From NCBI RefSeq assembly GCF_019972295.1, contig NZ_BLJA01000001.1, positions 2,070,117-2,134,116 of the forward strand: 64,000 nt of DNA, given 5' to 3'. The position numbers and the translations under genes are program-made. The notes under the pieces are model-generated. The model did no database searches, had not been told where the DNA came from, and was given only the letters and a program-made list of their open reading frames with translations. This document shows, one piece after another, positions 14,116 through 39,956 of the stretch. This stretch comes from Geobacter sp. AOG2. GTDB taxonomy: Bacteria > Desulfobacterota > Desulfuromonadia > Geobacterales > Pseudopelobacteraceae. Numbering within the stretch: the first letter of the stretch is position 1; every line of letters starts with the position of its first letter.

Positions 14116-15822
14116 CTAGTCATCGGCAACCGTAACCCGCAGAACCTCTTCGAAGGAGGTAACCCCCTCCTTGAGCTTGGTAAGCCCTGATTGGCGCATG
14201 GTCTTGATGCCCAACCGCATCGATTCACGCTTGATCTCGGCCGTATTGGCGCCATTCAGGATCAATTCGCGGATTTCGTCCAGCATGGGCATCACCTGAT
14301 AAAAGCCGACCCGCCCCTTGTAGCCGGTACTGTTGCAGACGGAACACCCCTTGCCGCGCATGCAGACAAAGGAGGGGGCCTCGTCGGGGGAGACGCCGGC
14401 GTCGATCAGCGCCTGGACCGGGATGTCTTCAGGCTCCTTGCATTCGGCGCAGACCCGGCGGGCAAGACGCTGGGCCGTGATCAGGTTGACGGCGGACGCC
14501 ACCAGAAACGGCTCGATGCCCATATTGAGCAGGCGGTTGATGGTGGCCGGGGCGTCGTTGGTGTGCAGGGTGGAAAGCACCAGGTGCCCGGTCAAGGCGG
14601 CTTTGGTGGCTATTTCGGCGGTCTCGAAATCGCGGATCTCGCCGATCATGATGATGTCGGGGTCCTGCCGCAGAAACGAGCGCAGGGCTGCTGCGAAGTT
14701 GAGGCCGATATCCTCGTGCATCTGCACCTGGTTGATCCCGGCGAAGTTGAATTCGACCGGGTCTTCGGCGGTGGAGATATTCTCCGAAACCTTGTTGAGT
14801 TCGGCAAGGGCCGAATAGAGGGAAACCGTTTTCCCGCTCCCGGTGGGACCGGTGACCAGCACCATTCCGAACGGCTTGTGGATCTCGCGCAGAAAGTGCG
14901 ACAGAGCCTCCGGTTCGTACCCCAGCTTGGTCAGGTCGGTTTGCAGATTGCTCTTGTCCAGAAGCCGCAGGCAGATCTTCTCGCCGAACAGCGTCGGCAG
15001 CACCGAAACGCGGAAATCCATGTCCTTTCCGCCGCCCAGCTTGATCTTGATGCGTCCGTCCTGGGGCAGGCGCCGCTCGGCGATATCCAGTTCCGACATG
15101 ATCTTGATGCGTGAGGTAATGGCGTTTTTCAGCTTGAGCGGCGGCTTCATCACCTCGTAGAGCACGCCATCGATGCGATAGCGGACGCGGAACACTTTTT
15201 CATAGGGTTCTATGTGAATATCGCTGGCTTTTTTCCTGATGGCGTCCTGCAGGATGGCATTGACCATCTTGACGACCGGGGCGTCCTCGGTGGCCTTCTC
15301 CAGGGAGTTGACATCGACGTCGTCGGTGTCGCCGACGACTTCCACATCCTCGAAATCCATATCGCCCATGACATCGGCCAGCGATGCGGACTGGTCGTAG
15401 TGCTTGTCGATGGCGGTCTTGATGTCCATTTCCGACGCGACCACCATCTCCACGTTGTAGCCGGTCATGAACTTGATATCTTCGATGGCGAACAGGTTCG
15501 AAGGGTCGCTGACCGCGACGATCAATGTGGCGCCCGCGCGGTTCACCGGTATAAGCTGGTATTTCTGGACAACTTCCTGGGGAATGACCTTGATGACTGC
15601 CGGGTCTATGTCGTAATCGGACAGGTTTACTGCGGGAACGCCGTATTGTTTGGAGAGAAACGAGGTAAGGTTTTGATCGCTGATGGCATTTTGCTTGATG
15701 AGAATCGTGCCGAGGCGCATCTGGCCGCCGGAAAGTTTCTGCTCCTCAAGCGCCTTGGCAAGCTGCTCTTTGGTGATCAGATTATTTTTTACCAGGATTT
15801 CTCCCAGCCGGCTTGACTGCAT
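14116..15822 (-). CDS. pilB: Type IV pilus assembly ATPase PilB
   Basis: 568 residues. There are N-terminal MshEN-like modules (about 1-140: SRLGEILVKNNLITKEQL, then a second repeat LGTILIKQNAIS), which in related proteins bind cyclic di-GMP. The secretion ATPase domain follows, with Walker A GPTGSGKT at 325-332, TAEDPVEF, Walker B MIGEIRDFETAE and TGHLVLSTLHTND. A tetracysteine zinc site (VCAEC and CMRGKGCSVC) follows near 460-500. PilB drives pilus extension. It is the first gene of the pil operon, with a sigma-70-type promoter directly upstream in the space shared with divergent purM. Confidence 0.95.
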   Translation of the reverse strand: MQSSRLGEILVKNNLITKEQLAKALEEQKLSGGQMRLGTILIKQNAISDQNLTSFLSKQYGVPAVNLSDYDIDPAVIKVIPQEVVQKYQLIPVNRAGATLIVAVSDPSNLFAIEDIKFMTGYNVEMVVASEMDIKTAIDKHYDQSASLADVMGDMDFEDVEVVGDTDDVDVNSLEKATEDAPVVKMVNAILQDAIRKKASDIHIEPYEKVFRVRYRIDGVLYEVMKPPLKLKNAITSRIKIMSELDIAERRLPQDGRIKIKLGGGKDMDFRVSVLPTLFGEKICLRLLDKSNLQTDLTKLGYEPEALSHFLREIHKPFGMVLVTGPTGSGKTVSLYSALAELNKVSENISTAEDPVEFNFAGINQVQMHEDIGLNFAAALRSFLRQDPDIIMIGEIRDFETAEIATKAALTGHLVLSTLHTNDAPATINRLLNMGIEPFLVASAVNLITAQRLARRVCAECKEPEDIPVQALIDAGVSPDEAPSFVCMRGKGCSVCNSTGYKGRVGFYQVMPMLDEIRELILNGANTAEIKRESMRLGIKTMRQSGLTKLKEGVTSFEEVLRVTVADD

Positions 15823-37763: not shown

Positions 37764-37969
37764 TTGAATTGGGAAATTGCCGTTGTTCGACGCATCGGGC
37801 CGGACCGCCAAAAAACTTCGTATTTACTCTATACTAACCCCTTTGAAGATGTATGGCCAGATACCTGCGACCGTTTGCCGCCCATCCGCTTAATGAAATT
37901 TTGTTTGAGTTTTGACGCATCTTCGCTACTATTGGACGCAAATTCAGCATTCCGCAAGGGAGGCAGAAC

Positions 37970-39133
37970 ATGGCAAAGGTCTTGATCCCCTTGGCCGACG
38001 GCTTCGAAGAACTGGAAGCGATTACGGTCATCGACGTCCTCCGCAGGGCGGGAATCGAGGTAATCACAGCCGGCCTGCATCCGGGCCCCGTACCCAGCGC
38101 CCGCAAGGTCGCCGTCATTCCCGACACGACCATCGACACCGCCAGGGCCGATGATTTCGACATGATCATCCTTCCCGGCGGCCAGCCGGGCAGCGACAAC
38201 CTTAACGCCGACATCCGCATCGACAAGCTTCTCAAGGATTTTTCCGCAGCCGACAAACTTATCGGCGCCATTTGCGCGGCACCCACCGTGCTTGCCGCCG
38301 CCGGCCTGCTGACCGGCAGACAGGCGACCTCCTACCCCAGCTACCGGGAAAAACTGGGAGGGGCATACTACCTGGACAAAACGGTGGTGGAGGATGGAAA
38401 AATCATCACCAGCCAGGGGCCGGGCACGGCAATCCCCTTTGCGCTGGCCGTCGTTGCCCGGCTGGCCGGCAACCACACGGCGGAAGACGTCGCCAGGGCC
38501 ATGCTCGTCGCTACTGCCGGAAATGACGGGCTATGGGATCAGCGCCTGTTCAACAGCATTGTCCAGGCGCTGGTGGGGGCACTGGAACTGAAAGACAGCT
38601 ATACCCAGGGGCATGCAAAACGCGTTACCGAATATTCACTCGGCATCGGCTCCAAACTTAATTTTTCGGAGGCCAAGCTGCGCGACCTCTACCTTGGGGC
38701 GATTCTCCACGATATCGGCAAGATCGGCACCGAGGAGGAGGTGCTCAACAAACCGGAACGCCTCAACCTGCGCGAGGAAACCCTCGTCCGTGAGCATCCT
38801 CTTAAGGGCACGCTCTTTATCGTGGGGGTCGAAAGCCTGGACAACATCGTCCCCACCATCCTGCACCACCACGAACGTTGGGACGGAAACGGCTATCCCG
38901 CCCGTCTCAAGGGTGAGCAGATCCCCCTCCACGCCCGCATTGTGTGTATTGCCGACGCCTTCGACGCCATGCTCTCCGTCCGTTCCTACCGGCCTGCCCA
39001 GGATAGAGAGGCAGCCATTCGTGAGCTGCACAATAAAAAAGGGACGCAATTCGATCCATTTCTCGTGGACGTCTTTGTCGAGTTCCTCAATGAATCACCC
39101 TTTGAAATCAGAGATTTCAGTTACTATTTTTAG
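37970..39133 (+). CDS. DJ-1/PfpI - HD-GYP fusion protein
   Basis: 387 residues in one uninterrupted frame, with AAGGGAGGCAGAAC before the ATG. Residues 1-185 form a DJ-1/PfpI domain of the YajL type: FEELEAITVIDVLRRAGI, ILPGGQPG, and the nucleophile C102 in GAICAAPTVLAAAGLL. Residues 190-387 form an HD-GYP domain with GHAKRVTEYS (H215), LHDIGKIG (H247, D248), REHPLKG, HHERWDGNGYP (299-310) and IADAFDAMLS, so all metal ligands and the GYP motif look intact. HD-GYP domains hydrolyse cyclic di-GMP; DJ-1 proteins respond to oxidative or carbonyl stress. This points to redox- or aldehyde-sensitive control of cyclic di-GMP, but that role is inferred. It is transcribed away from miaB and its 3' end overlaps znuB. 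Confidence 0.93.
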   Translation: MAKVLIPLADGFEELEAITVIDVLRRAGIEVITAGLHPGPVPSARKVAVIPDTTIDTARADDFDMIILPGGQPGSDNLNADIRIDKLLKDFSAADKLIGAICAAPTVLAAAGLLTGRQATSYPSYREKLGGAYYLDKTVVEDGKIITSQGPGTAIPFALAVVARLAGNHTAEDVARAMLVATAGNDGLWDQRLFNSIVQALVGALELKDSYTQGHAKRVTEYSLGIGSKLNFSEAKLRDLYLGAILHDIGKIGTEEEVLNKPERLNLREETLVREHPLKGTLFIVGVESLDNIVPTILHHHERWDGNGYPARLKGEQIPLHARIVCIADAFDAMLSVRSYRPAQDREAAIRELHNKKGTQFDPFLVDVFVEFLNESPFEIRDFSYYF

Positions 39134-39956
39134 ACCGATGGTTGAGGTAGCGCCGGACCAGAAACGCAAGGCTGAAAAAGAGCAGATTGAGCAGCACGAT
39201 CATCGCGCTGGTGGGCAGATTGGTGATAAACGACAGGAAAATACCGGCCACCACCGAGCAGCCCCCCTGAAGGGCGGCCAAGACGACACAGGCCTTGAAA
39301 CTGCGGGCGAGTTGCAGGGCCGATACCGCCGGCAGGATCAGAAGCGATGAGATCAGCATGATCCCCACCAGCTTCATCGCCAGGACGACCGACAAGGCCG
39401 TCAGCAGCACCAGGACGGCATTGATGGTTGCGGTGCGGATGCCGGAGACACGGGCCAGTTCCTCATCGAAGGTAATGGCGAGCAGGTCGTTGAAATAAAG
39501 CGACAACAGCAGCAGCACCACGCAGAACAGCGCCGCGGCGATGCCGACCTCCTGCGTGGTTATGGACAGGATATTGCCGAACAGGTAGCTCAGCAGATCG
39601 ACATTGTACCCCCCCCCCACGCTTGCCAGGATGATACCCGCCGAAATCCCCAGCGCCGACACGATGCCGATGGCGCTGTCGCCGCTCAGACGCGCCTTTT
39701 CCGTCAGCTTGAGGATTCCCAGCGACGAAAGCATCACGACCGGCAGCGACACCAGCAATGACGAGGCCGAATAAAGTTTGAGCGACAGGGCTATGGCCGT
39801 ACCGCCGAAGGTGACGTGCGCCAGGCCGTCCCCGATCAGGGAAAGCCGCCGCAGCACGAGGAACACGCCCAGCACCGAGCAGAGCACGGCGATCAACGTC
39901 CCCGCCAGGAGCGCCCGCTGGATAAAACCGTATGAGAGGATTTCAATCACATTCAT
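39117..39956 (-). CDS. znuB: Zinc/manganese ABC transporter permease (ZnuB type)
   Basis: 279 residues with about eight membrane helices. The N-terminus reads SYGFIQRALLAGTLIAVLCS, and the family signatures are SLIGDGLAHVTFGG (about 40-54) and FDEELARVSGIR (about 160). It belongs to the ABC-3 family (ZnuB/MntB/AdcB) that imports Zn2+ or Mn2+. With znuC and a Fur-family regulator next to it, zinc is the best guess. The last 17 bases overlap the 3' end of the DJ-1/HD-GYP gene on the other strand. It is separated from znuC by a 300-base repeat array. No znuA-like binding protein is in the window. Confidence 0.9.
   Translation of the reverse strand: MNVIEILSYGFIQRALLAGTLIAVLCSVLGVFLVLRRLSLIGDGLAHVTFGGTAIALSLKLYSASSLLVSLPVVMLSSLGILKLTEKARLSGDSAIGIVSALGISAGIILASVGGGYNVDLLSYLFGNILSITTQEVGIAAALFCVVLLLLSLYFNDLLAITFDEELARVSGIRTATINAVLVLLTALSVVLAMKLVGIMLISSLLILPAVSALQLARSFKACVVLAALQGGCSVVAGIFLSFITNLPTSAMIVLLNLLFFSLAFLVRRYLNHRSKNSN

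Follow-up and report, generated by a model that had tools for sequence, protein, structure and literature searches.

We identified in Geobacter sp. AOG2 a gene that encodes a DJ-1/YajL domain and an HD-GYP domain in one 387-aa protein (37970..39133, + strand; coordinates are those of the window, the whole 64,000-nucleotide stretch of DNA that was analysed). This architecture is retained in 30 species, and purifying selection acts on each of the two halves. The initial annotation, made from the letters alone, described two complete domains in one frame; Pfam and TIGR01383 matches and the presence of all catalytic residues of both domains bear this out. In this species, the DJ-1 and the HD-GYP half are each probably active. 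We discuss below how the two activities might be connected.

A conserved fusion gene and its locus

The reading frame runs without interruption between the DJ-1 and HD-GYP parts. We found 30 complete fused proteins, that of the window included, of which 29 belong to its own Geobacteraceae-level family and one to a sister family of the order (genome G128, locus L166); the fusion spans several genera. Fused orthologues share ~65-84% identity across the genus and the family, and ~84% within the same genus. This set excludes two genes cut by contig ends (L178 and L179), one with a frameshift (L190) and one from an IMG/VR contig (L244). The frameshift in L190 (L190:4840-6029; G049, a genome 76% complete) lies within the HD-GYP part of a fused orthologue and represents either a sequencing error or a pseudogene. 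L244 (L244:258-1424, IMGVR_UViG_3300040733_000021) is a complete fused gene near the end of a contig of the viral collection, which is probably host DNA or misassigned. Outside the family and G128, the fusion was found neither in 277 genomes of the class nor in a 395-genome sample of the phylum, where DJ-1 was encoded by itself and the other close matches were stand-alone frames of about 180-265 aa.

Within the fused set, mean identity is 75% for the HD half and 63% for the DJ-1 half, the former thus being the better conserved of the two. Median pairwise dN/dS was 0.23 for DJ-1 and 0.13 for HD-GYP among proteins with His at position 215 (H215 group), and 0.15 and 0.07, respectively, among those with Gln (Q215 group). 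A chance join or an assembly error is excluded by the 30 complete fused proteins, their ~84% identity within the genus and the low dN/dS of each half. The initial annotation was to stand or fall with a stop or frameshift between the domains and with orthologues keeping them joined; the 29 other complete fused proteins settled both points in its favor, ruling out an artefact.

The fusion gene stands alone, as miaB upstream lies on the opposite strand. Inspection of the sequence revealed a candidate sigma-70-like promoter (TTGAGT, 16 bases, TACTAT; 37905..37932, + strand) within a stretch that is largely kept in three species of the same genus. Downstream, a convergent gene encodes a znuB-like ABC-3 permease (PF00950; 39117..39956, - strand) that is not part of the fusion system, and the 3' ends of the two genes share 17 bases (39117-39133). 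Synteny with znuB is retained in many relatives, including loci that encode the HD-GYP domain alone, and the 3'-end overlap recurs in several of them, again including HD-only loci. An ORF that is open in the +2 frame across the HD-GYP region (38613-39350) was rejected as an overlapping gene, since this frame contains at least 10 stops in every other orthologue. Elsewhere in the window, several genes between 44254 and 54790 have a third-position GC of 0.38-0.56 compared to ~0.75 for most of the window, which suggests an acquired island.

Catalytic residues and predicted structure of the two halves

The DJ-1/YajL domain corresponds to residues 1-181 (37970..38512, + strand). It matches DJ-1_PfpI (PF01965; residues 2-163, 1.5e-50) in Pfam and the DJ-1 family glyoxalase III model TIGR01383 in NCBIfam (residues 3-176), the latter with 189.7 bits against a curated cut-off of 131.25. 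Residue C102 (38273..38275, + strand) aligns to the nucleophilic C106 of human DJ-1, and the YajL-like domain with a nucleophilic C102 proposed initially was upheld. This position is a Cys in 28 of the 30 fused proteins and a Gly in the two others (L166 and L189), both of which retain the full HD-GYP motif. The residues of human DJ-1 that are essential for hydrolysis of cyclic 3-phosphoglyceric anhydride (cPGA), namely E15, E18, R28, G74, G75, C106 and P158 (PMC12135873), align to E13, E16, R26, G70, G71, C102 and P151 of the window protein, and A103 is the counterpart of A107, whose backbone nitrogen participates (PMC12135873). E13, E16, R26, G70 and G71 are invariant in all 30 fused proteins. 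Tyr122 occupies the position of His126, a dispensable residue since the H126A substitution leaves the activity of DJ-1 unchanged (PMC12135873). Furthermore, R28 works across the dimer interface of DJ-1 (PMC12135873), and the invariant R26 therefore fits a DJ-1-type dimer.

The initial annotation presented DJ-1 proteins as reacting to oxidants or dicarbonyls. The best-quantified activity of the subfamily is cPGA hydrolysis, with kcat/Km values (per M per s) of 5.9e6 for DJ-1 and 1.3e7 for YajL (PMC10915168). In our assessment, the DJ-1/YajL subfamily is better described by this chemistry than by reaction with oxidants alone; methylglyoxal or the oxidation of thiols may also be what the domain responds to.

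The HD-GYP domain comprises residues 189-375 (38534..39094, + strand) and matches HD_5 (PF13487; residues 202-363, 7e-35). The metal site of these domains is defined as H...HD...H...HH...D (PMC8177086), and alignment to PmGH revealed the complete motif in the window protein, made up of H215, H247, D248, H276, H300, H301 and D329. The first ligand, H215 (38612..38614, + strand), is replaced by Gln in a clade of 15 species, while the HD pair H247-D248 (38708..38713, + strand) and the GYP motif G308-Y309-P310 (38891..38899, + strand) are invariant in 30/30 fused proteins. The HD pair, the later histidines and the GYP motif read from the letters were thus all recovered. Tyr211 (Tyr in 27 and Phe in 3 of the 30 fused proteins) sits at the position of the third-metal ligand E185 of PmGH; hence, a dinuclear site is expected, and a trinuclear PmGH-type site was rejected as its extra ligand is replaced. 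Ligand loss is the mark of the metal-free HD-GYP domain of DvhD, which serves as a c-di-GMP receptor in Desulfovibrio vulgaris (PMC13090378). The window protein retains all of its ligands, and the proteins of the Gln clade are without one.

The HD-GYP half may act on c-di-GMP and/or 3',3'-cGAMP. The specificity glutamine close to the active site of PmxA-type, 3',3'-cGAMP-specific HD-GYP domains does not provide a general rule, according to a review (PMC8177086). The genome contains 33 GGDEF and 11 HD_5 matches, as well as 15 matches over cut-off to the c-di-GMP-I riboswitch family. One GGDEF domain of this genome (L229, C1:1990461-1990928) carries a Ser in GHLVGS in addition to the GGDEF motif. 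Ser348 is the Hypr signature of GacA (PMC6456294), which makes L229 a candidate Hypr-type (GacA-type, cGAMP-making) cyclase; together with the 15 riboswitch matches, it suggests a cGAMP network. Given the GGDEF set, the Hypr candidate and the riboswitch matches, both c-di-GMP and 3',3'-cGAMP are plausible substrates. The c-di-GMP first proposed therefore holds as a plausible substrate but not as the sole candidate. The initial annotation also pointed to MshEN-like modules in PilB as possible readers of c-di-GMP. The domain is real, as PilB (14116-15822, - strand) has one Pfam match to MshEN (PF05157, 1.3e-24, residues 60-146), but the gene lies ~22 kb from the fusion gene and nothing connects PilB to the fusion protein. 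Two RLGxxL-type repeats were observed near the N-terminus of PilB, and its sequence features are consistent with c-di-GMP binding.

An AlphaFold2 model built with 43 sequences had a mean pLDDT of 86.2 and a pTM of 0.57, with both domains mostly predicted with confidence. Foldseek matched the DJ-1 part to 4e08 (TMt 0.86) and the HD-GYP part to 9rbz (TMt 0.83). The linker (residues 180-188; 38507..38533, + strand) differs in length by several residues among aligned fused proteins, and residues 180-185 have a pLDDT below 50. With this low linker pLDDT and the pTM of 0.57, structure prediction recovered both folds but did not fix the relative placement of the two domains.

Separate halves and a clade with an altered metal site

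Each half also occurs without the other. Six species of genus g6 encode DJ-1 without HD-GYP, and no HD-GYP match was present in the 1.1-5.9 kb downstream of the gene. All six DJ-1-only proteins retain the catalytic Cys, Glu, Arg and Gly-Gly. In the DJ-1 tree, two of them (L174 and L176) cluster with the fused proteins L167 and L201 (support 99/94), so the absence of HD-GYP is secondary there; such loss from within the fused clade accounts for at least two of the six species, the tree being less clear-cut for the four others. Conversely, a stand-alone HD-GYP protein of 210 aa is encoded in seven species of genus g2. A znuB-like gene lies directly downstream at six of these seven loci, as in the window, and no znuB match was present within the available stretch of the seventh (L258). 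The full HD motif is kept in five of the seven proteins; in the two others (L259:3674-4303 and L260:1830-2459), YD replaces HD, so that a metal ligand was lost independently there. The HD-only proteins of g2 and all fused HD-GYP domains form one group in the HD tree (100/99), a tree that does not give the order of events (fused first or HD alone first). Therefore, with DJ-1 alone in six species and HD-GYP alone in seven, neither half needs its partner everywhere.

The 15 fused proteins with Gln at position 215, hereafter the Q clade, all come from g6 and form a single clade (100/100). Their HD-GYP domains carry three fixed changes, H215Q, I252Y and P277T, to residues never seen in other fused proteins; I252Y is located just past the HD.GK stretch and P277T adjoins the ligand H276. 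The DJ-1 half is intact in these proteins, and the HD half, which has the lowest median dN/dS (0.07), is their most constrained part. Remodelling therefore seems more likely than decay, and the Q-clade HD-GYP domain may have become an enzyme with a modified site or a receptor for nucleotides.

Possible coupling of the two halves and comparison with known systems

We tentatively favor, with a confidence that falls a little short of even, a model in which reaction at, or occupancy of, the DJ-1 site of the window protein alters the HD-GYP domain, thereby coupling metabolic or electrophile stress to cyclic-dinucleotide turnover. The fusion product would be a soluble one-component protein forming a DJ-1-type dimer. 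Its N-terminal domain would act as a Cys/Glu enzyme for a reactive metabolite (cPGA, a 2-oxoaldehyde or an oxidant), and its C-terminal domain as a dinuclear-metal phosphodiesterase for c-di-GMP and/or 3',3'-cGAMP. The short linker and the first HD-GYP helix would relay events at the DJ-1 site to the HD-GYP domain, and metabolic or electrophile stress would then alter cyclic-dinucleotide turnover. The genomic set of cyclic-dinucleotide proteins and riboswitches and the known pairing of N-terminal sensors with HD-GYP domains fit this model; the absence of H215 from half of the fused set, the pTM of 0.57 and the low-confidence linker weigh against it. The stress-gated c-di-GMP hydrolase put forward in the initial annotation is partly supported, in that the domains are complete and the fusion is conserved, while gating of HD-GYP by DJ-1 is a proposal. 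An obligate gate is disfavored, as C102 is a Gly in two of the 30 fused proteins, the halves persist alone and the linker varies in length. Another explanation comes close behind gating, though we regard it with somewhat more doubt: the chain would carry two activities that work independently of each other and were brought together so that they are co-expressed or can dimerise, without allosteric coupling. Each half exists alone with its site kept (DJ-1 in six species, HD-GYP in seven, with the full motif in five), the linker is variable and the model does not predict the domain placement. Yet retention of the fusion in 30 species of several genera and a sister family is unexpected for a neutral join, and the N-terminal partners of HD-GYP domains are commonly sensors (PMC8846402).

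Information could also flow in reverse, with the HD-GYP domain binding a cyclic dinucleotide and regulating the DJ-1 enzyme. We consider this unlikely overall, and likeliest in the Q clade, where H215Q, I252Y and P277T became fixed jointly in one clade with the lowest HD dN/dS and an intact DJ-1 half; DvhD sets the example of an HD-GYP domain that acts as a receptor without metal (PMC13090378). No residue of the motif is missing from the window protein, however, and the Q clade misses a single ligand, so its members may still bind metal and act as enzymes, whereas DvhD lost both the HD and HH pairs. Species with DJ-1 only further indicate that DJ-1 can do without HD-GYP. It is similarly improbable that the two forms divide the roles, the Q-clade HD-GYP controlling the DJ-1 to which it is fused, either as a receptor or as an enzyme with altered metal, while the window form is a metabolite-gated phosphodiesterase; if true, a PARK7-type damage-repair enzyme would fall under second-messenger control in the Q clade. 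Least probable is slow decay of the HD-GYP domain, in which case the protein would amount to a DJ-1 enzyme that could do without its tail. Such decay would account for the repeated HD-GYP loss in g6, the missing ligand of the Q clade and the YD in two HD-only proteins, but the HD half is the more conserved one (75% vs 63% mean identity, dN/dS of 0.07-0.13 vs 0.15-0.23) and HD-GYP survives alone in g2.

In Geobacter, both attachment and extracellular electron transfer depend on control by cyclic-dinucleotide signalling, and the physiological substrate of the DJ-1/PARK7 family is still debated. If the two halves are coupled as in the gating model, the fusion would tie this signalling to DJ-1/PARK7 chemistry, and what DJ-1 senses would become visible in the phosphodiesterase activity. 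One bacterial family offers fused, DJ-1-alone, HD-GYP-alone and altered-metal-site fused forms, and thereby natural variants for tests of coupling.

The initial annotation knew of no characterised protein of this architecture, and we likewise found no description of it in the open literature, where papers mentioning both domains were mostly judged by title. Two papers that mention HD-GYP with DJ-1, PfpI or ThiJ (PMC5504864 and PMC7998248) are unrelated to the architecture, and the main text of a census of c-di-GMP sensory proteins (PMC8846402) mentions neither DJ-1 nor PfpI. The window protein shares the catalytic set E13, E16, R26, G70, G71, C102 and A103 with the DJ-1/YajL subfamily (TIGR01383; human PARK7, Drosophila DJ-1beta and E. 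coli YajL), and its DJ-1 half is 45% identical to Drosophila DJ-1beta (4e08) in a structural alignment. It differs from this subfamily by its C-terminal HD-GYP domain and by Tyr122 in place of His126, and two fused relatives lack C102. The complete motif and GYP, in both sequence and fold, are those of the HD-GYP phosphodiesterases PmGH (4mcw), V-cGAP3 (5z7c) and PA4781 (4r8z), from which the window protein is set apart by its N-terminal DJ-1 partner and, in the case of PmGH, by Y211 instead of E185. DvhD (9rbz, 9rc0) has the HD-GYP fold in common with the window protein but is a PAS-containing membrane receptor in which SQ replaces HD, the HH pair is lost and no metal is bound; the motif is intact in the window protein, and even the Q clade, with one ligand missing, has lost far fewer ligands than DvhD. 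An N-terminal module followed by a C-terminal HD-GYP domain is an established sensory layout, represented by the gas- or redox-responsive globin-coupled HD-GYP of Vibrio fluvialis (PMC10882959) and hemerythrin Bhr-HD-GYP (PMC8846402). These proteins use a heme or di-iron sensor, whereas the module here has the fold of an enzyme. In Ava_4496 (3fse), a DJ-1-like domain is joined to a ferritin-like partner; in the window protein, the partner is a signalling enzyme. DJ-1::HD-GYP thus appears to combine two known families in a new way rather than to be a new kind of system.
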